The translations under genes were made by a program, and so were the position numbers. Shown piece by piece: positions 2,844-43,854 of a DNA stretch of 45,713 nucleotides. A model generated the notes under the pieces. That model saw nothing but the letters and a program-made list of their open reading frames with translations, did no database searches and was not told the DNA's origin. Each line of letters starts with the position of its first letter. Within the stretch, counting starts at the first letter, position 1. This DNA comes from a virus, in IMG/VR virus record IMGVR_UViG_3300035667_000102, positions 1 through 45,713 of that record, one strand, 5' to 3'.

Positions 2844-3290
2844 TTAGTCGTCTGTATCGGGGGCGGCGTCCCCAACGACACGTCGGGCGCTCAGCTTCCG
2901 CTGCACCGCTTGCCGCTCTTCGCCTTTTTGCTCATCGCCGCGCATCCGACGAAGGAATGCCTGCGCGCGTCGCTCGGCCGCCTTCAGCTCCGGCTCGCTC
3001 TCCGACCGCATCGCGGCGAGCAGAGCATGGATATGGTCGAGCGCCTCCTCGAAATGCGCCATTTTCGCCATCAGCGGGCGCAGGCCGCTCAATTCCTCCC
3101 GCGCCTCGTGCAGCTCAGAACGCAGCGCATCGACCAGCTCGAGCGTCGTGTCTGTCCAATGCTCTTGAAGCTTGGCGTCGAATGTCCGCTCGGTCGCGTG
3201 GACGACGCCGAATGTGCGCATCCATTGGACGGCAATTGCCGATCCGGCCCCGCCGAGCCCGGCAAGGACGATTTGAAGCCACGCCGGCAT
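2844..3290 (-). CDS. Single-TM protein with a coiled-coil tail, lysis region
   Basis: This 148-residue protein has a hydrophobic N-terminal helix (about residues 3-22, Gly/Ala-rich) followed by a long charged helical region with heptad-like Leu/Ala spacing and Glu/Arg pairs (about 50-125). GGAGGGG lies about 6 bases before the ATG. It sits between the tail genes and the endolysin, where phages often carry a second holin-like or pinholin-type membrane protein or a lysis accessory. No active-site motif is visible. I do not recognise a family; the membrane and coiled-coil reading is direct from sequence, and the lysis role is only positional. Confidence 0.5.
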   Translation of the reverse strand: MPAWLQIVLAGLGGAGSAIAVQWMRTFGVVHATERTFDAKLQEHWTDTTLELVDALRSELHEAREELSGLRPLMAKMAHFEEALDHIHALLAAMRSESEPELKAAERRAQAFLRRMRGDEQKGEERQAVQRKLSARRVVGDAAPDTDD

Positions 3291-3307
3291 TTATTGCCCC
3301 TCCAACA

Positions 3308-3910
3308 CTATGCCGACCCCTTACCGCCGAGTGGCTGAACCGGCTTTGTAGGATCGGCGAGAGCATCCCATTGGATCGCTGCCTCCGCCCGCTTCTCGGC
3401 TTCGGTGGTCGCCGCAGTGACCGCCTTCTTGGCGCCGAGCCGTGCCGCCTCGATTTTCGGTTCCAGATCGGCCCAGGTATCGGCGCCGGCGATAATCACC
3501 GCGGCCAGCTCTGCCGCCTCAACTCCGGTGGCGGCCGCTTCGGCTTCGATCATAGGCCAAGGCCCCGCGCCGCCGGCCACTAATGCCCGCGCCTCGGTTT
3601 CCTTGCGGCGATAGGCCGATTGTTGCCCGATGATGGTGGTGAGGAAGCGGCCACGAAAAGCGCCGGCGGCGGCGTCGATTGAGGCTAGAAGCTCAGCGTC
3701 GATCGCCGCCATGTCGAGTTCGATCGCGCCGGTTGCCGGATCGATGAACTCAAACTGCTCTGGCGCACGCTCTAGCGTGCAAACGACCGCGTAGCCCGGA
3801 TAGGCGTCGAGCACCCGCTCGGCGTCGGTGCGCTCGTCCGTTACCGCCCGCCCAGGGGCAAGTGCCAGCTTCGGCCGCTCGCCCTCTTTCTCGAGGTAGT
3901 ACCAGCTCAT
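3308..3910 (-). CDS. Tail-fibre accessory protein (unknown function)
   Basis: This 200-residue soluble protein begins MSWYYLEKEGERPKL, starting in an ATGA overlap with the end of the large tail-tip gene. The first about 110 residues look like a small alpha/beta domain; the remainder is Ala/Glu-rich helix with many basic residues. Small proteins directly after a tail-tip or fibre gene are often fibre-assembly chaperones or tip caps, and the helical C-terminus would suit that. No diagnostic motif was recognised, so the role is positional inference. The ATG at 3910 was preferred to upstream in-frame starts because those lie deep inside the tail-tip gene. Confidence 0.5.
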   Translation of the reverse strand: MSWYYLEKEGERPKLALAPGRAVTDERTDAERVLDAYPGYAVVCTLERAPEQFEFIDPATGAIELDMAAIDAELLASIDAAAGAFRGRFLTTIIGQQSAYRRKETEARALVAGGAGPWPMIEAEAAATGVEAAELAAVIIAGADTWADLEPKIEAARLGAKKAVTAATTEAEKRAEAAIQWDALADPTKPVQPLGGKGSA

Positions 3911-12578: not shown

Positions 12579-13364
12579 CTATCCGCGATCGGATGACGCT
12601 GAGGCCTTTCGCCCGATTTGGAGCGAGAACACGTCGCGGCCGTCATAATTGGCCGGCCCGAAATGGTTCCTAAGGTGCCATTTGAACTTGTCCTGCCCGT
12701 ATGGGAGGAGGTCGTTCCCGACGCACCAGTTCAGATAACTTTCCCAGAGCGTCCGTAGGTGGACGCCCGACCCGGGACTGAGTCTCACCGCGCACCCTTC
12801 GAGCCACTGGTAGAGCTCGCCTTTGCGAGCTGCCGGTGGGTCGAGCGCGCGCTCGACCGAGGCCGCGCTGAAATCGTCGATATTCGGCGGCAGCGGCAGG
12901 CCAAGCTCCTTCCACTGCGCTATTGCCGCGTCCCGCCCGCGCGCCGCCATCATCCGGCGCACCGTCTCCATGCCCCGCCCGATGGCATCGCGGCCCTCAG
13001 GGGTGCGGAGCAGTGGGTGCAGCTTCGCCAGGCCGTTATCGTTGACGGCCAGGCTCTGGCTCAGCGCTTGCTCCATCCGCCGGAAGGCCTCGAGGAACTT
13101 CAGCTTCCATTCCAGCGCCCGAGCACCAGTGAACCCCATGGCCAGCAGCGAGAATCCGTCGCGGTCCATTTCGTAGCCCCGGTATGACCGTCCCCGGCTG
13201 ATAAAATCTCGTGGCGCAAAATTGCGCCCCGAGATTTCCGGCGCCAGTGCGATCAGCCTGTCGATCGCGCGCAGCACGTCTTTATGTGCCTTATCAAACG
13301 CCGCCGCCACGTCTTGGCTGCTGGCCCTGACCTCGCCATCGCGGATCGAAACCAGCGCGCTCAT
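12579..13364 (-). CDS. Rha-family phage regulatory protein
   Basis: The N-terminal about 100 residues match the Rha regulatory domain: SSQDVAAAFDKAHKDVLRAI, RNFAPRDFI, YEMDRDGFSLLAMGFTG and KLKFLEAFRRME. The C-terminal part (about 185-245: ELYQWLEGC, LWESYLNWC, KFKWHLRNHF) resembles the winged-helix module found at the end of phage primases and antirepressors. Total 261 residues. Proteins of this family modulate early or repressor control; the target here is unknown. It is coupled by ATGA to the Tat-signal gene upstream and followed by a strong terminator. Finding it among tail genes rather than near the repressor is unusual and suggests a cargo cassette, possibly a superinfection or lysogeny modifier. 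Confidence 0.75.
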   Translation of the reverse strand: MSALVSIRDGEVRASSQDVAAAFDKAHKDVLRAIDRLIALAPEISGRNFAPRDFISRGRSYRGYEMDRDGFSLLAMGFTGARALEWKLKFLEAFRRMEQALSQSLAVNDNGLAKLHPLLRTPEGRDAIGRGMETVRRMMAARGRDAAIAQWKELGLPLPPNIDDFSAASVERALDPPAARKGELYQWLEGCAVRLSPGSGVHLRTLWESYLNWCVGNDLLPYGQDKFKWHLRNHFGPANYDGRDVFSLQIGRKASASSDRG

Positions 13365-26531: not shown

Positions 26532-26606
26532 TGGTTGCACGGGCGGGATTTGAACCCGCGACCTCTTGGTTATGAGCCAAGCGAGCTACCACTGCTCCAC
26601 CGTGCG
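26532..26606 (-). tRNA. tRNA-Met (CAT), initiator-like
   Basis: The 75-base gene folds into a full cloverleaf with an encoded 3' CCA. The acceptor is CGCACGG against CCGTGCA; the D arm is GAGC/GCTC with a short 7-base loop; the anticodon arm is CTTGG-CTCATAA-CCAAG (anticodon CAT, 26574-26572); the T arm is GCGGG-TTCAAAT-CCCGC. The first acceptor pair is C-A, the hallmark of bacterial initiator tRNA, and the D and variable regions also resemble initiators. However, the anticodon stem ends TGG/CCA, where initiators normally have GGG/CCC, and the D loop is two bases shorter. It lies just upstream of the terminase small subunit and is probably on the late transcript. Confidence 0.88.
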
Positions 26607-34397: not shown

Positions 34398-34564
34398 CCT
34401 TGCCCCCACTTCCACCAAAAGAAAAAGGCCACTGCCGCGTCCGCCAGCTGCATAGCCGCTTTGCTGGGCTCGCCCGTGAAGAGGCAATACAACGCCAATC
34501 CAATCGCCAGCCAAAAGGCGATGTCGGCGAGCAGCCTTGCGATCCTGTTCAGCCGCGCGATCAC
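34394..34564 (-). CDS. Small two-TM membrane protein
   Basis: This 56-residue protein starts with GTG, whose last bases overlap the stop of the helicase-methyltransferase gene (GTGA). It has hydrophobic stretches LLADIAFWLAIGLALYCLF and LADAAVAFFFWWKW around a short loop, so two membrane helices are likely. It ends in an ATGA overlap with the next gene. A long reading that includes it is a shadow upstream. Function unknown; early small membrane proteins often interfere with host physiology or superinfection. Confidence 0.5.
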   Translation of the reverse strand: MIARLNRIARLLADIAFWLAIGLALYCLFTGEPSKAAMQLADAAVAFFFWWKWGQG

Positions 34565-37218
34565 TCGGCTGCCTCCAGTTCTTCCGGCACGTCCTCGTCG
34601 CCGGGATCCGCGGCTTCCTCCGCCGCAAGCAGGTCGAATAGTGTGAGGGACTGCCGCGCCTGATCGGCCTCGCGCAGGATCGTCACGCCGTCGTCGAAAT
34701 AAGAGGAATTGAGCTCGACCCCGAGCCCGCGCCGGCCGAGCCGCACGGCGCGCAGCGGCACCGTCATCAGCCCGCCGAAAGGATCGTAGACCAACTCGCC
34801 GGGGTTCGAGAAGCGGTTGATCAGGCGGTCGACGATGTCGAACTGGAGCGGGCAGAGATGCCGCTCGCGGCCTTTGGCGACCTGCACCCCGTTTAGCGTG
34901 CGCATCCGGGTCACGTCTGACCAGACGTCGGGATGCCGGGACACCGGCTTCAGCGTCATAAAGTGCGTCGGCAGCTGGTTGGCGTCGTCGAGCGCCTTGG
35001 CGATCGCGACGTGCCGATCGTAATCGTAGACGCTCTCGGCCGAGAAGCCGCGGAACATGCGATAGACTGTCTTGGTGTCCAGCCCGAGCAGCTCCTCCGG
35101 CTCGAGCAGCCGGTCGCCGCGCGACTTCCATAACGCGTGCGCGTCCAGTTGCCAGCGAGCCCGGCTGTACTCGGCCTTGGTCTTCTTCACCGGCTCGTCG
35201 GCGTAGCCGTCCGACGTGTCCGTCGGGGGCTTGCGGAACAGCAGCACATATTCGGGCATGCCGACGCTCATCCGGCTGCCGTCGTCGCACTGCATCGACC
35301 ATCCGAGCCGATAGGTGGCGTTGTTCTCGCGCACCACGTCCGTCACGACCGTGATCATCCCCATGTAGAACAGGCCATGCCGGCGCCGGTGCGCGATGCA
35401 TTCGGCGTGGAAGGGCGAGACGCTCTGGAAGCTGACCCCGTCGAGACCGCCGGGGCGGATGCGATCCTTGACGTGGAAGCACATCATCCGTCCCGGCTTC
35501 AGCGCGCGCACCAGTTCCGGCAAGAGATAGTCCATCTGCGCGAAGTAATGGGCGTCGTTGTCGGTGTGGCCGAAGTCGTTATAGCTCGGCGTATATTCAT
35601 ATTGGGTCGAGAAGGGCTCGGACGTGACGATCAGGTCGAGGCTGTCCTCGGCCAGTTGCGCGGCCTCGATCACCGTGTCTTGGTTGATGACCTGCCAAGC
35701 CGGTTTGCCGTCGATCGATGCCGCCGAAGCCGCCTCGCGCCGTTCGACGCCGATCGACCGGCCGAGCAAATCGTCGGCGCCGGCGAGACCGAGCCCATAA
35801 GTGCGGATGATCTCGCTCATCCGGCGGCACATTTCCTCGTGCCTCTTCCACTTGCCTTCGAGGCTCGCGCGCACGCTGCGCTCGGCCTCGGTGAAGATCA
35901 GGTCGATCCGCACCGGCTTCGTCTGCAGGAATCGCTGGATGCGGTGGATCGCCTGGATGAAGTCGTTGAACTTGAAGCCTATGCCGAGGAAGATCGCCCA
36001 GGCGCAGTGACGCTGGAAATTGCAGCCGGAGCCGGCGAGGATCGGCTTGGCCGCCAGCTCCTGAATGTCGCCGTCCGAGAAGCGGATGATCGCCCGCTCG
36101 CGATCGTCGAGATCTTGGGCGCCGTAGACCGAGACCGCATTCGGCACCGCCGCCTCGATCGCGCGGCGCTCATCCTCGAGGTCGTGCCAGAGCAGGCGGT
36201 GTGCGCCCGGATCCTCGCTGCACAGCTCGAGCATCTTGGCGATGCGCGCGCCCAGGCTGTCGCGCTTCTCGCGCGCGGCGTCGACGATCCCGATCGCGCT
36301 GGCCTTGAGCAGACGCCGCTGCCCGTCCACCTCCTCGCCCGCTTTGCGATGGTCGGAGGGGACTTCGTGCCAGCGCACGTCGAGAGGGGGCAGATCGTAG
36401 CCCTCGTCGGAGAAGCCGAGATCGGAGGGGCGCTGGATGAAGGCCGCCCAACTGTTCACCCACAGCCAGAATTCGGCCTCCTTGTGCGGGTGGATGGTGA
36501 GCGCGTCGGCCTTCTCGCTGTTGCGCTTGAAGAAGCGGGTCTTGGCCTGGCCGACGTCCATCACCTCCAGGAATGCGGCGTAGGCGAGCAGCTCGATATA
36601 TTCGTTGGGCGAGGGCGTCGCCGTCGCGACGAACTTGAACCGGACGCCGTCGAACAGCTTCATAAACTCGCGGAAGGTCTTGGTCCCGCCGAAGCCCCGA
36701 AGGCAGGAGGCCTCGTCTAGCGACACCGCGGTCAGGATCGACGTGTCGATCTTACCCTCACGGACCGATTCGTAATTGGTCAGGTAGAGCCCGCGGAAGC
36801 CCGCTGCCTGCGCGTCGAGGATCTCGCGGGTGGTGCGGACGAAGCGGACGTCGATGCCGAGCTTTGCGGCGTCCGTTTTGAACTCGGTAACGACGGTCAG
36901 CGGGATGACGATCAGGCAAATCGGAGAGCCAGCGCCCTCGTAGCTCGATTGCTCGCGCACCGCCTCCAGCACCAAGCGCATCGCCTCGAGCTGGATCATC
37001 GTCTTGCCGAGCCCGAAATTGGCGAACAGCGCGCGGCGACCGCCCTCGACCAGCCATTTGACCAGGACAGGCTGATGCCTGTGCAGCAGCGGATGCACGT
37101 CGCCGATCGCTACCGGCAGTCCGAGTTCGGGCGCCCGTACCGCCTTCGCCTTGACGAAGTCCAGATAGTCTAGGGGCTCAGATCCCGGATCGGCGGGGAT
37201 GGCAGTGCCATATCTCAT
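34561..37218 (-). CDS. SNF2-like helicase fused to DNA methyltransferase
   Basis: This 885-residue protein has an N-terminal SF2 helicase: F-A-N-F-G-L-G-K-T (Walker A, about 65-73), V-S-L-D-E-A-S, A-T-A-T-P-S-P-N, and a C-terminal helicase lobe with QAIHRIQRFLQT. From about residue 500 it becomes an amino-methyltransferase: L-I-V-T-S-E-P-F-S (motif IV; usual S/D-P-P-Y/F), GRMMCFHVKDRI and, near the end, V-Y-D-P-F-G-G-L-M-T-V-P (SAM motif). The order IV before I is that of beta-class enzymes. It could methylate phage DNA as it is translocated. The ATG at 37218 was preferred because AAAGG lies just upstream; another ATG is at 37233. Confidence 0.82.
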   Translation of the reverse strand: MRYGTAIPADPGSEPLDYLDFVKAKAVRAPELGLPVAIGDVHPLLHRHQPVLVKWLVEGGRRALFANFGLGKTMIQLEAMRLVLEAVREQSSYEGAGSPICLIVIPLTVVTEFKTDAAKLGIDVRFVRTTREILDAQAAGFRGLYLTNYESVREGKIDTSILTAVSLDEASCLRGFGGTKTFREFMKLFDGVRFKFVATATPSPNEYIELLAYAAFLEVMDVGQAKTRFFKRNSEKADALTIHPHKEAEFWLWVNSWAAFIQRPSDLGFSDEGYDLPPLDVRWHEVPSDHRKAGEEVDGQRRLLKASAIGIVDAAREKRDSLGARIAKMLELCSEDPGAHRLLWHDLEDERRAIEAAVPNAVSVYGAQDLDDRERAIIRFSDGDIQELAAKPILAGSGCNFQRHCAWAIFLGIGFKFNDFIQAIHRIQRFLQTKPVRIDLIFTEAERSVRASLEGKWKRHEEMCRRMSEIIRTYGLGLAGADDLLGRSIGVERREAASAASIDGKPAWQVINQDTVIEAAQLAEDSLDLIVTSEPFSTQYEYTPSYNDFGHTDNDAHYFAQMDYLLPELVRALKPGRMMCFHVKDRIRPGGLDGVSFQSVSPFHAECIAHRRRHGLFYMGMITVVTDVVRENNATYRLGWSMQCDDGSRMSVGMPEYVLLFRKPPTDTSDGYADEPVKKTKAEYSRARWQLDAHALWKSRGDRLLEPEELLGLDTKTVYRMFRGFSAESVYDYDRHVAIAKALDDANQLPTHFMTLKPVSRHPDVWSDVTRMRTLNGVQVAKGRERHLCPLQFDIVDRLINRFSNPGELVYDPFGGLMTVPLRAVRLGRRGLGVELNSSYFDDGVTILREADQARQSLTLFDLLAAEEAADPGDEDVPEELEAAE

Positions 37219-37226
37219 GCCGCCTT

Positions 37227-37781
37227 TCAACATGACACCACCGCTGTCCGCTTGCCGGTGGCGACGATCGTCGCCACCCTGCAGCCGATGGCGGCCGCCT
37301 CGACCCTGAGCCGTCCCGCGCTGATCTGCTTGCGCAGCAGATAGGCGACGCGGTCGGGCAAGATCGGCGCGCTCATCCCGGCGAGATCGGCAATCTCCTC
37401 GCCCAGCTCGCGGTTTGTGCCCATCGGCGCCGAGCGCGCGGCGCGCCGTCGCAGCGCCGCCATAAGCAGCGCAATCTCGTCATTGTCCTCGCTCGGTATC
37501 GGGGGCGCCAGGCGGTTGGCGGGGCCTGGTCGGCGGGGGTCGGCGCAGCGCTGGGCGATGTAAGAACGATCGAACTCGGCGTGCTTCACCTGCTTGAATG
37601 TGACGCGACCCTCATCATGGGCCACCTGGAGCGCCCGAACCCCGTCGGAGGCGTGGAGCCGGTCGCCCCTCGCATAAACGATCTGATCGCCGGGTCTGGC
37701 TTTCTCAAGCCATTTCTCGACCGCGGGCGCCGACAGGGTCCAGACCCTCTCCATCTCCGCGCCCTCGCCTCCCCGCGCCAT
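37227..37781 (-). CDS. Early protein of unknown function
   Basis: This 184-residue protein has an N-terminal part containing V-E-K-W-L-E-K-A-R-P-G-D-Q-I-V-Y-A-R-G-D, then a Gln/His segment, then a helical part with NDEIALLMAALRRRA and a C-terminal winged-helix-like segment (REL, GEEIADLAGMS, VAYLLRKQISAGRLRV). The last could bind DNA. The start at 37781 forms TGATG with the upstream stop; the end overlaps the helicase-methyltransferase region. It follows the regulator genes and may belong to control of early expression. No family was recognised. Confidence 0.55.
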   Translation of the reverse strand: MARGGEGAEMERVWTLSAPAVEKWLEKARPGDQIVYARGDRLHASDGVRALQVAHDEGRVTFKQVKHAEFDRSYIAQRCADPRRPGPANRLAPPIPSEDNDEIALLMAALRRRAARSAPMGTNRELGEEIADLAGMSAPILPDRVAYLLRKQISAGRLRVEAAAIGCRVATIVATGKRTAVVSC

Positions 37782-38272
37782 CAACTTTCCTCCAAGGCTC
37801 GCGCGGCAAGCTGGTCCAGTTGCGCAAGGCGCTCTTGGGCTTCGGCGATCTGCGCGCGAATGTCGGCGGCCCTGATTTCAGCCGCCGACACCCCGCCGGG
37901 CAGCGCGCGCAGCAGGCGCTCCTGGACATCGTTGAAATCCGCGACGGCATCGCCGAGCGCAGCACACCAATCCGCCGTAGCCAGCAGAGCCGCTGGCTTG
38001 GCCACGAGCATGTAGCCGGCCTCCGCGGCGAGCCACCGCGTCACGTGCGGATGGCCGGGCGTGCCGTGGGTGCGCCCCTCGAGGCTCACCACCACATCAA
38101 TACCCACGAAGTCGGGCGTGTTCGGCCCGCCATAGGCGCTCAGTCGAGCCTGCGATTTGCCGGTCTCAGCCGCCGCCGCTTCCTGCCCGCCGAAGGCGCG
38201 GATCAGCGCCTTAGTCGCCGCCTTGCCGCCCTGCAGCTGCGGCGGATGAACGATTTCGCGGTCGCCATTCAT
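37781..38272 (-). CDS. Probable HTH regulator in CII position
   Basis: This 163-residue protein contains G-G-K-A-A-T-K-A-L-I-R-A-F-G-G-Q-E-A-A-A and KSQARLSAYGGPNTPDFVG, reading as two helices of a helix-turn-helix followed by a segment (EGRTHGTPGHPHVTRWLA) and a C-terminal coiled coil. It is the second gene left of the switch, where lambdoid phages keep CII-type activators, and is coupled by ATGA to the Cro-like gene. The name is positional; the HTH reading is moderate. Confidence 0.55.
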   Translation of the reverse strand: MNGDREIVHPPQLQGGKAATKALIRAFGGQEAAAAETGKSQARLSAYGGPNTPDFVGIDVVVSLEGRTHGTPGHPHVTRWLAAEAGYMLVAKPAALLATADWCAALGDAVADFNDVQERLLRALPGGVSAAEIRAADIRAQIAEAQERLAQLDQLAARALEES

Positions 38273-38712
38273 GCCGCGTCAGCCGGCGGCATGGCTGACG
38301 CTCCAGGCGAAGAGACTGGGGTGTTCGACCCCAATTGATCGGCTCTCGCGTCGACCTGCGGGCGGGTCGACGTTCTGGAACAGGTCACAGAGAAAGGGTG
38401 GCCGGGGCCGGCCTCCTCATCCGGGCGGATAATTTCGGCGCCGTTATTTGCTGACTGGATCGGCCATTCGGGTTCAGAACTTCCCGCATGCAATGCGAGA
38501 TCGCTCTTGGCCTCGGGGGGCAGGAAATCCTCCAGCCGCAAGAGGCCGCCCTTAGCGGCCGCTGCCTTGATTATCTTAGGCCAAGCGCGGGAGGGGATGT
38601 CGCGTCGATTGCGCCATTGCCGCACGGTGACGCCGAGCTCGTCGATGTCTGCGGCCATCGCTTCGGCGTTGCCGCCCCACACATCGTATATGGGCTGGAG
38701 GTGATGTGACAT
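38269..38712 (-). CDS. Cro/YdaS-like HTH regulator
   Basis: The first 55 of 147 residues (YDVWGGNAEAMAADIDELG, then VTVRQWRNRRDIP and SRAWPKIIKAAAAKGG) form the helix-turn-helix of YdaS/Cro-type repressors, and the rest is disordered. It reads left from the switch, opposite the CI-like gene. The promoter at 38748-38721 ends 9 bases before the ATG, so the mRNA would be leaderless or nearly so, and no ribosome site is seen. It probably turns off the repressor or its own promoter by binding the same dyads. The end overlaps the next gene by ATGA. Confidence 0.72.
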   Translation of the reverse strand: MSHHLQPIYDVWGGNAEAMAADIDELGVTVRQWRNRRDIPSRAWPKIIKAAAAKGGLLRLEDFLPPEAKSDLALHAGSSEPEWPIQSANNGAEIIRPDEEAGPGHPFSVTCSRTSTRPQVDARADQLGSNTPVSSPGASAMPPADAA

Positions 38713-38720
38713 GCTGTCAC

Positions 38721-38748
38721 GTAATACGCATCGTATTATTCCTGTCAA
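38721..38748 (-). promoter_or_regulatory. Leftward early promoter TTGACA-N16-TATTAC
   Basis: On the minus strand TTGACA (38748-38743), 16 bases and TATTAC (38726-38721) form a near-consensus promoter for the Cro-like gene. The -35 lies in the second operator and the -10 in the first, so repressor binding would occlude it. Confidence 0.7.
38722..38738. promoter_or_regulatory. Operator 1: TAATAC-GCATC-GTATTA
   Basis: A perfect dyad (7-base arms TAATACG/CGTATTA around CAT) between the Cro-like and CI-like genes, covering the -10 of the leftward promoter. It is the best match to the consensus TAATAC-N5-GTATTA shared by four sites. Confidence 0.75.
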
Positions 38749-38762
38749 TACCCCATGTATTA
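38746..38762. promoter_or_regulatory. Operator 2: CAATAC-CCCAT-GTATTA
   Basis: One mismatch from the consensus, placed exactly 24 bases from operator 1 and covering the -35 of the leftward promoter. It is nearest to the CI-like gene on this side and could control its transcription. Confidence 0.7.
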
Positions 38763-38785
38763 CACAATTTGCTACGCTGCGCATT

Positions 38786-39523
38786 ATGGCGAGCCGCAAG
38801 GATATCATGGCCGAACGGCTGCGGGAGGCCCGACAGGGCGCCGGGTACGGCACGGTCGCCGCCGCGGCCGAAGCGTTCGGTTGGCCCCCGGCCACGCTCA
38901 CCAGCCACGAGAACGGAACTCGCGGCTTCGATGTGGATGCGGCCCTTCGTTACGCGCGCGCCTTCAGGCGCCAGCCGGGTTGGTTGCTAGGCCTGGATCA
39001 CATCGAGGCGCCAGAGTACGGGGCCGCTCGCGGCTACAGCGTCGTTCGGAAGATCCCGCTGCTCGGAACTGTGGCCGCCGGGATTTGGCGCGAAGCGTCG
39101 GTGCTTGATGCCGACGAGCCTCAGGAAATCGACTTTACCGCTTTGACCGGTGATGAGGGGGAGGAGATGTTCGCGGTCAATCTGGAGGGCCAGAGCATGA
39201 ACCTGACCCTCCCGACCGCGGCCACCCTTATTTGCCGGCGCATCGCGTTCGGCAGGATCGAGGCCCAGCCCGGCGAGCTAGTGATCGTCCAGCGCCAATC
39301 CCATGACCTGGTGGAGCTTACCTGCAAAAGACTGGCGCTGATCGATGGTCAATATGTCCTGCTTAGCGAATCGGATCGGCCTGAGTTCCAGAAGCCGATC
39401 GTCTTAGGCGCGCCAGACCTTGAACATGCGGCGGACGACGAGACGCGCGTGATCGGCGTCGTGCGTCGCGCAATCTTGGCGAGCTTCCCGCCTCCAGCAA
39501 ACGGCCCGACGACGCTCCAATAA
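38786..39523 (+). CDS. CI-like repressor with LexA/S24 self-cleavage domain
   Basis: This 245-residue protein has an N-terminal HTH (MAERLREARQGAG, VAAAAEAFGWPPATLTSHEN) and a C-terminal S24 peptidase. The cleavage site is T-V-A-A98-G99, the nucleophile Ser137 is in L-E-G-Q-S-M, and the general base Lys181 is in E-L-T-C-K-R-L. SOS activation of RecA would therefore induce the prophage. The start at 38786 is favoured because the HTH begins at once. Its stop codon TAA is the first three bases of operator 3, so the repressor gene runs directly into its second control region. It sits between two dyad pairs and would hold both early operons silent. Confidence 0.88.
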   Translation: MASRKDIMAERLREARQGAGYGTVAAAAEAFGWPPATLTSHENGTRGFDVDAALRYARAFRRQPGWLLGLDHIEAPEYGAARGYSVVRKIPLLGTVAAGIWREASVLDADEPQEIDFTALTGDEGEEMFAVNLEGQSMNLTLPTAATLICRRIAFGRIEAQPGELVIVQRQSHDLVELTCKRLALIDGQYVLLSESDRPEFQKPIVLGAPDLEHAADDETRVIGVVRRAILASFPPPANGPTTLQ

Positions 39524-39537
39524 TACACAACGTATTG
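39521..39537. promoter_or_regulatory. Operator 3: TAATAC-ACAAC-GTATTG
   Basis: One mismatch from the consensus, overlapping the stop codon of the CI-like gene and the -35 of the rightward promoter. It pairs with operator 4 at 24 bases. Confidence 0.7.
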
Positions 39538-39562
39538 ACACTGGCGTTACGACACGTATTAT
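39535..39562 (+). promoter_or_regulatory. Rightward promoter TTGACA-N16-TATTAT
   Basis: A consensus -35 and near-consensus -10 with 16-base spacing, the same design as the leftward promoter. It drives the operon from 39589 to the integrase. Operators 3 and 4 overlap its -35 and -10. Confidence 0.72.
39545..39561. promoter_or_regulatory. Operator 4: CGTTAC-GACAC-GTATTA (degenerate)
   Basis: The right half is perfect and the left half matches at three of six bases. Its spacing of 24 from operator 3 and its overlap with the -10 support it. It would be the weakest of the four. Confidence 0.5.
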
Positions 39563-39588
39563 CCGCCTCCTGAACCTCAGGAGGCCCC

Positions 39589-41153: not shown

Positions 41154-41554
41154 GGATCGCGGCTACGCCGCGATCAGGGGCCGGCGCGACGCCGACACCC
41201 CGCTATGTCAGGCGTTCCAGGAAGAAAGGATTCCGCACGCCCGAGGGCGTGATCTACTGCGGACGCCCGACGGTTCGCGGTAACCCCTTCGACTGGCGCA
41301 TCCATGGGATCGCCCGCGCTGTCCGCCTCTATGCCGATTGGTTCGATTACAGGCTGAGCGCGCTCGCGCTTGAACGCATGGGCTTCTGCCCGGCCGAGAT
41401 CGATGCGCTGACCCGCAAGCGTGAGCGCCTGCGGCAGCAGGAGGCGTGGCTTCGGGGCAAGGAACTCTCCTGCTGGTGCGCCGAGAACGCGCGCTTTTGC
41501 CACGTCCGCACTGTTCTGCTCCCCCGCCTCAACGCCCCGGAGACACCTTCATGA
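41150..41554 (+). CDS. DUF4326 protein
   Basis: This 134-residue protein has the markers of DUF4326: V-I-Y-C-G-R-P-T-V-R-G-N-P-F (about 38-51), Y-A-D-W-F, and L-R-G-K-E-L-S-C-W-C followed by C-H. The last is a probable metal or redox site. The family is widespread in phages and has no established function. It starts in ATGA overlap and is followed by the methyltransferase gene in another ATGA overlap. Confidence 0.75.
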   Translation: MRIAATPRSGAGATPTPRYVRRSRKKGFRTPEGVIYCGRPTVRGNPFDWRIHGIARAVRLYADWFDYRLSALALERMGFCPAEIDALTRKRERLRQQEAWLRGKELSCWCAENARFCHVRTVLLPRLNAPETPS

Positions 41555-43854
41555 AGCATCCCGATCTGCTCGACGGCGCCTCGCCCGTCGCCTTCGTCCG
41601 CGTCTGGGGCGAGGGCATCATCGTCGACAACTTCGCCGGCGGCGGCGGCGCCTCGACGGGCATCGAGGCCGCGATCGAGCGCCCCGTCGACCTCGCCATC
41701 AACCACGACGCCGAGGCTGTGGCGATGCACCTCGCCAATCACCCGGCGACGCATCACCTTTGCCAGTCGATCTATGCCGTCGACCCGCTCGAGGCGGTCT
41801 CGGGCCGGCCAGTCCTGGGGGCGTGGTTCTCGCCCGACTGCAAACACTTCTCCAAGGCCAAGGGCGGCAAACCCGTCGAGAAGAATATCCGCGACCTGGC
41901 ATGGACCGTCGTCCATTGGGCCGAGCGGCTCGGCCCGCAGCTGCGGCCGCAGATAATCTGGCTGGAGAATGTCGAGGAGTTCCGCACCTGGGGCCCGCTC
42001 GGCGCCGACGACAAGCCCGATCCCGCGCGCAAGGGCGAGACATTCGACGAATGGGTGGGCCGCCTGCGCCGGGCCGGCTACAAGGTCCAGTGGCGCGAGC
42101 TGAGGGCCTGCGACTACGGCGCTCCGACCAGTCGCAAGCGCCTGTTCATCGTCGCCCGCTGCGACGGCGAGCCGATCGTTTGGCCCGAGCCGACGCATGG
42201 CAAGCCAGGGTCACCCGAGGTCCTGTCCGGCAAGCGCCTGCCATGGCGGACCGCGGCGGAGATCATCGATTGGTCGATTCCGTGCCCGTCGATCTTCACC
42301 CGAAAAAAGGAGCTGAAGGACGCAACCAAGCGCCGGATCGCTCACGGCATCATGCGCTTCGTCGTCAACAGCCCGAAGCCGTTCATAGTCCCGATCACGC
42401 ACAGCGGCGGCGACAGCCGCGTTCACTCGGCCGACGATCCGCTCCGCACCGTCACCACGGCCGCGCGCGGGGAGTTCGCTATGGTCGCCCCCGTCTTTGC
42501 CCGCACTGCCCATGGCGAGCGCGACAGCAAGGGCAAGAAGCGAGGGAAGGGCGACCATGGCCCGGCCGAGCCTTTCCCGACCGTCCTCTCCAGCCAGGAT
42601 AGCGCCCTGATCAGCGCGACGATCGTCGGCTGTGGCGGGCGGCGCGGGCAGAGCGGCCCGGTCGACGTCCTGGGCCCCTATCCGACGACGACGGCCAAGG
42701 GCGACGCATGCCTGGTCACCGCCGCGCTAATCTCGAACCAGTATACGAGCAACACCAATGGCGGCCGCGGCGACCCTGACCGGCCCTTTAAGACGGTGAC
42801 AGCAGGTGGCGGCCACCATGCCTTGGTCGCGGTGTCGCTGGTCAGCGTCGACAACACCTCTACCCGGGCAATCCGGGCATTCGAGGCTAACGATCCTCTA
42901 CGCACCGTCACCAGTTCAGGCGGCGGCTTCGCAGCCGTAAGCGCGACGCTGATCCAGATGGGCTACGGCGAACGGGAAGGGCAGGCGCCTCGCGTCCTCG
43001 ATCTCCATATGCCGCTTGGCACCATCGTCGCTGGCGGGATCAAGCACAGCGTCGCGACTGCTCTGCTCGTCCCGCACGTCATGACGATGCGCAATGCTCA
43101 GAAGCCCTACACCGCGGGAGACGAGCCGACGCATACGATCACGGCGGGAGGCGCGCATCAGAACCTGGTCAGCGCGTTCCTCCACAAATACCGGCCCGAT
43201 CATCCGGGCCAGTCGCTCGACGATCCGGCGCCGACCGTCACCGCCAACAGCTACATCAAGCGTCCCGGCGGCGCGCCGCCGCTCGCAGTCGTCACCGCCC
43301 ACATAGCGCAGCACAACAGCGGCAAGACCCCGAATGCCGGGCGGACGGCAGAGGCTCCGCTCAGCACGATCACAAGCAGCGGATCACACCAGCAGCTCGT
43401 GGCTACGACCGTCATGAAGTTGCGCGGCACGTCGAAGGACGGCCAGCCGATCGACGTGCCGCTGCATACCCTCTCCGCCGGCGGGACGCACTTCGCCGAG
43501 GTCGCCGCCTTCCTCATCAAATATTACGGCAACGAGAATGGAGGCTACGGCTTCGACCAGCCGATCGGCACGGCCACGACCAAGGAGCGATTCGGCCTCG
43601 TCACCGTGACGATCGACGGCGAGGAATATGTCATCGCCGACATCGGCATGCGGATGCTGACGCCACGCGAGCTGGCTCGGGCCCAGGGCTTCCCCGACGA
43701 CTATATCCTGGACCCGATCGTCAACGGCAAGCCGCTCACCAAGACGGCACAGATCCGCATGATCGGCAACAGCGTCTGCCCGCCTCTCTCCGAGGCGCTG
43801 GTGCGCGCCAACCTTGCCGACGCCATCGTCGGCGTGGCCGCGGTGGCGGCATGA
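41551..43854 (+). CDS. C5 cytosine DNA methyltransferase with repeated recognition region
   Basis: This 767-residue enzyme has the C5-methyltransferase core: V-D-N-F-A-G-G-G-G-A-S (motif I, 25-35), F-S-P-D-C97-K-H-F-S (motif IV, with the catalytic Cys in a P-D-C rather than P-C-Q setting), L-E-N-V (138-141), GAPTSRKRLFIV (motif VIII-like), and R-M-L-T-P-R-E-L-A-R-A-Q-G-F and IRMIGNSV (IX, X). Between VIII and IX, about residues 310-690 hold 11 degenerate units with P-x-x-T-[V/I/L]-[T/S]-[A/S/T]. It would methylate cytosine in target sites and shield phage DNA. It is coupled to DUF4326 and a tiny membrane protein. Confidence 0.88.
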   Translation: MKHPDLLDGASPVAFVRVWGEGIIVDNFAGGGGASTGIEAAIERPVDLAINHDAEAVAMHLANHPATHHLCQSIYAVDPLEAVSGRPVLGAWFSPDCKHFSKAKGGKPVEKNIRDLAWTVVHWAERLGPQLRPQIIWLENVEEFRTWGPLGADDKPDPARKGETFDEWVGRLRRAGYKVQWRELRACDYGAPTSRKRLFIVARCDGEPIVWPEPTHGKPGSPEVLSGKRLPWRTAAEIIDWSIPCPSIFTRKKELKDATKRRIAHGIMRFVVNSPKPFIVPITHSGGDSRVHSADDPLRTVTTAARGEFAMVAPVFARTAHGERDSKGKKRGKGDHGPAEPFPTVLSSQDSALISATIVGCGGRRGQSGPVDVLGPYPTTTAKGDACLVTAALISNQYTSNTNGGRGDPDRPFKTVTAGGGHHALVAVSLVSVDNTSTRAIRAFEANDPLRTVTSSGGGFAAVSATLIQMGYGEREGQAPRVLDLHMPLGTIVAGGIKHSVATALLVPHVMTMRNAQKPYTAGDEPTHTITAGGAHQNLVSAFLHKYRPDHPGQSLDDPAPTVTANSYIKRPGGAPPLAVVTAHIAQHNSGKTPNAGRTAEAPLSTITSSGSHQQLVATTVMKLRGTSKDGQPIDVPLHTLSAGGTHFAEVAAFLIKYYGNENGGYGFDQPIGTATTKERFGLVTVTIDGEEYVIADIGMRMLTPRELARAQGFPDDYILDPIVNGKPLTKTAQIRMIGNSVCPPLSEALVRANLADAIVGVAAVAA

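Follow-up and report, generated by a model that had tools for sequence, protein, structure and literature searches.

In phage lambda (NC_001416), cI lies between two outward-directed operons and encodes a repressor with a LexA-like fold. The operators are 17 bp long, OR3 sits beside the cI start, and both OR1-OR2 and OL1-OL2 are 24 bp apart by the annotated coordinates. PMC8053113 reports that looping between the two operator clusters, 2.3 kb apart, has been shown for lambda CI; it also describes HK022, in which OL and OR are separated by ~700 bp, divergent lytic operons surround cI, and looping is thought possible. Phage 933W has five operators and no OL3 according to PMC3317979 and PMC10742460, and its repressor is reported in the former to be non-cooperative.

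Here we describe a cI locus from IMG/VR virus record IMGVR_UViG_3300035667_000102, the whole 45,713-nucleotide stretch of which is referred to below as the window. The locus shares with lambda the operator length, the 24-bp spacing of both primary pairs, the placement of cI between two outward operons, an OR3-like site beside the cI start, and the predicted fold of CI. It differs in operator letters and repressor sequence, in having five detected sites where lambda has six, in the distance between clusters (~775 bp versus 2.3 kb), in a Cro-like mRNA that is predicted to be leaderless, and in where site 2 falls relative to the cI start. By description, it is like HK022 in its cluster distance (~700 bp there) and in operons that diverge from cI, and like 933W in its five operators, although the repressor of 933W, reported as non-cooperative, would set that phage apart.

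A further comparison is offered by Synechococcus phage Yong-M3-232 (OM868076; L128 in our set), whose CI is 41% identical to that of the window. Its sites lie at -65, -40, and -16 of cI, with two more past the stop codon, at spacings of 25, 24, and 25 bp. It differs in having Arg39 and mainly CGATAC arms, as well as a possible sixth site that lies at the cI stop with a 23-bp step to its neighbor. Yong-M3-232 is a cyanobacterial record, yet its CI family is shared with alphaproteobacterial contigs, and its host assignment may be worth verifying.

From these comparisons, which are of sequence and predicted structure, we conclude that the region is very probably a lambda-type lysis-lysogeny switch with CI acting on paired dyads. 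The design is textbook lambda; what we add is a fifth site, an explanation of the spacing, and a correspondence between repressor residues and operator bases. A literature search, thin on subscription journals, found no paper on the CI operators of phages in this group.

RESULTS AND DISCUSSION

Five operator-like dyads around cI

Five 17-bp dyads surround cI, three on its left and two on its right, with a step of exactly 24 bp within each cluster (Table 1) and 775 bp between the centers of sites 2 and 4. The original prediction had named four dyads; all four are present, but the site at 38770 had been overlooked. The form TAATAC-N5-GTATTA that it gave them is exact at one of the four, the others carrying 1, 1, and 3 mismatches. 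Its account of the surroundings can be read directly from the letters: a 24-bp distance within both pairs, one pair on each side of cI; a TTGACA-N16-TATTA(C/T) promoter under each pair; and the cI stop codon (TAA, 39521-39523) inside the third of the listed operators. Sites 3 and 5 are poorer matches, with 9 of 12 consensus arm letters each, and the window, with three sites on the left and two on the right at up to 3 mismatches, does not show the six-site form of three per cluster. Thus, the array is of the lambda kind by layout and not of the six-site form.

TABLE 1 Positions of predicted operators, promoters, and genes in the window; mismatches are counted against TAATAC-N5-GTATTA
Feature	Positions	Strand	Remarks
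Gene with helicase and DNA methyltransferase matches	34561-37233	-	Pfam/PHROG matches
CII-like activator gene, after Cro-like gene	37781-38272	-	phrog_101, E 1.8e-15
Cro-like gene, first of leftward operon	38269-38712	-	Position and N-terminus common to several homologous loci
Leftward early promoter (PR-like)	38721-38748	-	TTGACA 38748-38743, spacer 16, TATTAC 38726-38721; read from sequence
Site 1 (OR1-like), TAATACGCATCGTATTA	38722-38738		0 mismatches; overlaps leftward promoter -10
Site 2 (OR2-like), CAATACCCCATGTATTA	38746-38762		1 mismatch; left half is TTG source for leftward -35
Site 3 (OR3-like), TGCTACGCTGCGCATTA, weak	38770-38786		3 mismatches; cI ATG begins at its final base
Candidate extended -10 of cI promoter (TGC TACGCT)	38770-38778	+	Inside site 3; weak, suggested by sequence
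cI, 245 aa	38786-39523	+	HTH N-terminus, Peptidase_S24 C-terminus
Site 4 (OL2-like), TAATACACAACGTATTG	39521-39537		1 mismatch; holds cI stop; TTG source for rightward -35
Rightward early promoter (PL-like)	39535-39562	+	TTGACA 39535-39540, 16 nt, TATTAT 39557-39562; 11/12 consensus letters
Site 5 (OL1-like), CGTTACGACACGTATTA	39545-39561		3 mismatches, 9/12 arm letters; overlaps rightward -10
First gene of rightward operon, 124 aa	39589-39963	+	No Pfam or PHROG family

Operator arms and promoter elements have letters in common, so the dyads might be chance, or AT-rich promoter-like words in GC-rich DNA. At up to 3 mismatches, however, the whole window holds five matches to TAATAC-N5-GTATTA compared to 0.79 expected (sd 0.89); shuffled windows (n = 100) gave at most four, and 0/100 reached five. 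Because all five also fall within 840 bp, a chance origin is untenable. In the close IMG/VR relatives L004 (97% CI identity) and L005 (91%), the arm letters of all five sites are unchanged, whereas the N5 core is altered in at least one of the two at four of the sites (that at 38770 being the exception) and the linkers vary too. Together with the recurrence of such pairs in homologues, described below, these results leave the chance reading a negligible probability.

The weak third site was considered separately. None of 2,000 random draws was as good a match, and a weak third site placed 16 bp before the cI ATG is also found in Yong-M3-232 and in L214. Across the 41 phages used for the covariation analysis below, a third site was detected in 7, including the window, compared to 0.10 expected.

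A LexA-like repressor

By its sequence, CI is a LexA-like repressor with predicted self-cleavage. It matched Pfam PF00717 (E 4.1e-10, above the cut-off) and phrog_4 (E 6.2e-21), and its match to HTH_31, at 26.8 bits, was just under the cut-off of 27. Residues A98-G99, S137, and K181 align with what we take to be the cleavage site and catalytic pair of LexA, and these putative cleavage and Ser/Lys residues are invariant in a three-row CI alignment. The predicted structure (mean pLDDT, 79.6) had lambda repressor and LexA as its best solved-structure matches (lambda repressor fragment 2hnf, Foldseek E 7.1e-07; 8gmu, Z 14.1, rmsd 2.5 over 122 residues); a sequence search of the PDB (E up to 0.01) did not recover lambda CI. 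Residues 39 and 40 sit in a predicted helix spanning residues 35 to 42.

A consensus promoter scan listed neither a cI promoter nor the leftward early promoter. Relative to the cI start, which is predicted to be leaderless, the center of site 2 falls at -32, whereas lambda OR2 is centered near -42; lambda-style activation of cI from site 2 is therefore doubtful.

Recurrence of paired sites in homologous loci

To collect homologues, a single-protein search of bacterial genome contigs returned no CI relatives, and for P0003 the only matches were the two close relatives. A profile built from three CIs, in contrast to the single-protein search, returned 29 loci in bacterial contigs, along with 52 in IMG/VR. 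With five phage records, the results of a further scan, the window itself, and the two relatives found first added, the set came to 98 loci, of which 97 had a start (L190 had none) and which reduced to 60 CIs under 90% identical to one another, the window included. Pairs of dyads were scored without a model of the letters, allowing spacings of 17 to 40 bp and calling a pair strong at 21 or more of 24.

Strong upstream pairs were found for 42/60 CIs, at 24 bp in 12, 25 bp in 23, 35 bp in 5, 33 bp in 1, and 39 bp in 1. Downstream, 15/59 loci had a strong pair, all at 24 to 26 bp, and 44/59 had none; the window's own downstream pair scores 20, under the cut-off, and so is not among the 15. The two spacings were equal in 10 of the 15 loci with strong pairs on both sides. 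Flanking pairs are thus recurrent but not universal, and equal spacing is no rule. Since both primary pairs of lambda are likewise 24 bp apart, the identical spacing in the window is not special.

An earlier run had used 64 hand-picked CIs, leaving out near copies along with L156, L157, and L162, in which no pair had been found; it gave 43/58 upstream and 15/57 downstream, and the 98-locus recount was run to include the rows omitted by hand. Block shuffles reached the observed score for none of those 43 upstream pairs (0/40 for any of them), and among the 15 downstream pairs only Yong-M3-232 had a shuffle that did so (1/20).

A second class of operators was seen in nine loci (L194, L196, L199, L200, L203, L204, L205, L208, and L222), mainly of the form CTGTAT-N5-ATACAG and 35 bp apart. 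L222 is a viral contig, the others being contigs of Phenylobacterium and Caulobacteraceae, and the recognition helix in this class reads NTYASNENGN or NTYSSNENGN. A set of 51 more distant host-genome loci included 40 with the HTH, 6 of them already in the homology set; only 10 of the 34 new matches had a strong upstream pair (6 at 24 to 26 bp, 4 at 34 to 37 bp).

IMG/VR was also scanned for operators alone. Spacings of 24 or 25 bp accounted for 136/178 AATAC pairs among the matches listed, for 25/25 CGATAC/CAATAC pairs (17 to 37 bp allowed), and for 48/53 AATAC pairs with TTGAC (20 to 38 bp allowed). Two of the 120 loci listed in the first AATAC scan, L076 and L122, matched the HTH of this CI at E 1e-3 and the others did not, so that the ~24-bp spacing is common to loci in which no CI of this family was detected. 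In the CGATAC scan (23 loci), the HTH was found at E under 1e-19 in 15, all with Arg39, while 2 loci had weak HTH matches and 6 had none; in the AATAC-plus-TTGAC scan (50 loci), it was found at E under 1e-10 in 6, all with Thr39. Counted as distinct lineages, these are 13 Arg HTHs from CGATAC, nine of which are also in the homology set, and 4 Thr HTHs from AATAC, of which only L076 and L122 are new. The operator-only scans are accordingly only partly independent of the homology-set covariation described next.

Operator letters follow recognition-helix residues

We compared operator letters with recognition-helix residues in 41 of the 58 CIs. Of the 17 dropped, seven belong to the CTGTAT class, one (L131) has a TCGTAC pair with 35-bp spacing, and the remaining nine have best pairs that are weak or in a different register; L141, L161, and L168 were kept at scores of only 19 to 20, and for L153, L197, and L130 the pair was taken in the 24/25 register although the best pair lay elsewhere. 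Residue 39 corresponded to half-site position 2, with Thr going with A in 9/9 phages and Arg with G in 22/29, the other 7 homologues being exceptions (Fisher p 7e-5, kinship ignored). Residue 40 corresponded to position 5: Ser, His, or Ala with A in 37/37 and Gln or Gly with G in 4/4.

On a tree built without columns 39 and 40, residue 39 had changed at least five times, and the base changed in parallel with it in an average of 3.8 of 5 Arg/Thr contrasts (over random pairings) and in the opposite direction in none; with only five independent contrasts, this test cannot reach 0.05. The distant host-genome loci were scored by eye. Among them, Arg went with G in 2/6 (L277 and L282, but not L288, L289, L293, or L294; the pairs of L288 and L294 score 20), and Gln or Gly at residue 40 went with G in 4/4 loci with a plausible dyad (L256, L265, L273, and L278; L256 and L265 score 20), no plausible dyad being seen in L251 and L258. 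The sole distant Thr39 locus, L285, has A at position 2 and mixed letters at position 5. The Arg39-to-G rule therefore weakens in distant loci, and we do not claim it as general.

The Cro-like protein or some other regulator could bind the dyads, with CI acting elsewhere. The Cro-like gene adjoins the array, and lambda CI and Cro share sites (PMC4488713), but operator letters that track residues 39 and 40 of CI itself point away from this alternative, which we consider improbable; the two proteins may nonetheless share the dyads. The comparison of homologues instead makes binding of the dyads by CI likely. Together, the homologous loci and the covariation between operator and recognition helix support the proposal, made in the original prediction, that one repressor may control two divergent operons through paired sites.

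Half-sites double as promoter elements

Reading the sequence, we found that operators overlap the early promoters, both of the sigma70 type, on the two sides of cI. The -35 starts within the promoter-distal site half (gtaTTGaca; in the window, GTATTG and then ACA), and the -10 box is half of the promoter-proximal site (gTATTAt). The site step consequently equals the promoter spacer plus 8, a step of 24 bp going with a 16-nt spacer (14 phages) and one of 25 bp with a 17-nt spacer (27 phages); that this holds in all 41 is geometry, not a statistical finding. At the place expected for the -35, TTG was present in 37/41 phages and TTGAC in only 21/41. Position 2 of the -35-overlapping half is A in 40/41 phages, whereas the other halves of Arg phages have G in 68/87. 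Keeping A at this position allows the -35 to read TTG. In lambda, OR2 and OL2 end in GTGTTG, which supplies the TTG of the -35, while the other four operators end in GATA. Judging by these letters, the -35 half deviates from the operator consensus to retain TTG, as lambda OR2 and OL2 do.

This arrangement raises the possibility that the 24-bp step is a mere by-product of half-sites doubling as -35 and -10 with a 16-nt spacer, and that it has no role in dimer pairing. Such an account would fit the step-spacer relation, the departure of the -35 half from consensus, and the non-cooperativity reported for the 933W repressor in PMC3317979. It sits less well with the CTGTAT class, whose 35 bp is about one helical turn beyond 24.5 and whose linker carries TTG in 9/10 loci inspected, suggesting that helical face matters by itself, and with the third site, which stands 24 bp from the second in five of seven phages (22 bp in two) with no evident shared promoter. 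We regard the by-product account as a serious but unlikely alternative.

In the preferred reading, a lambda-type switch with CI on paired dyads, CI dimers would occupy the 17-bp dyads in the two clusters flanking cI, and the 24-bp step would align two dimers along a similar helical face, where they would probably bind cooperatively. Because site halves double as -35 and -10, CI on each pair would block RNA polymerase at both outward operons. Weak site 3, over the cI start, would lower cI at high CI in the manner of OR3, and a DNA loop may form between the clusters 775 bp apart. Upon DNA damage, the conserved residues suggest, CI would cleave itself by means of its LexA-like peptidase and both operons would be released.

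Flanking operons and leader RNAs

The label "Cro-like" rests on position and on a shared N-terminus, which resembles the MSHLKPIYDVW...GVTVRQWRNR of several homologous loci, as the gene had no match in Pfam or PHROG. Its ATG lies 8 nt downstream of the -10 in the window, so near that its mRNA is probably leaderless. The Cro-like start falls 6 to 8 nt past the -10 in 29/41 loci by a first-long-ORF rule, which chose another frame in the window itself. For phage PY54, cI and cro mRNAs have been mapped as leaderless, according to PMC4488713.

Over the Cro-like start codon, positions 38706 to 38720 form a perfect dyad, GTGACA-tgc-TGTCAC, which may be a Cro site or chance. As a Cro operator, this sequence (GTGACAtgcTGTCAC) was set aside; it is present in L004 and L005 and absent in Yong-M3-232.

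Just past the rightward promoter, CCTCCTGA-acc-TCAGGAGG (39566-39584) spans the first gene's Shine-Dalgarno, and L005 has the same stem with a different loop. A leader hairpin over the rightward Shine-Dalgarno was rejected as a shared feature, since 50-nt leaders taken from the predicted start clearly beat shuffles in folding (z under -2) in only 2/22 loci, L169 and L170; the window had a z of 0.65. Separately, a leader RNA with a common stem follows the rightward promoter in L160, L163, L164, and L166 (~3263-3308) and in L169 (3250-3306), the last of which aligns poorly to the other four. Of the 12 base pairs predicted for it, three have both partners altered in one or more of the five sequences. 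This leader is absent from Rfam, and its pattern matched 1/296 genomes. Rfam itself gave only a tRNA in the window and nothing in six relatives; a tRNA-Met (CAT) gene lies at 26532-26606 (minus strand).

Beyond the genes in Table 1, a second large gene at 41446-43854 (plus strand) has DNA methyltransferase matches at both ends. A Rha-like or antirepressor-like gene at 12579-13364 (minus strand), outside the immunity region, might antagonize CI.

Host and wider meaning

Terminase, portal, and primase genes in the genome mark a tailed phage. Named hosts of the CI relatives are alphaproteobacteria (Sphingobium, Rhodobacteraceae, Phenylobacterium, and others), and the window is probably from a temperate phage of an alphaproteobacterium.

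We give roughly even chances to a broader proposal: that the phage belongs to a large group of lambda-like switches, alphaproteobacterial prophages included, in which operator letters could be read from residues 39 and 40, one half-site per pair would be held off consensus to serve as a -35, specificity and promoter strength would co-evolve, and divergent mRNAs would start at the ATG. The textbook lambda layout, even to its 24-bp step and the -35 letters that operator and promoter share, recurs in phages with alphaproteobacterial relatives. These loci form a natural data set for reading an operator from its repressor's sequence, which could help to predict which prophages share immunity. If the proposal is true, repressor specificity and promoter strength must evolve jointly in these phages.
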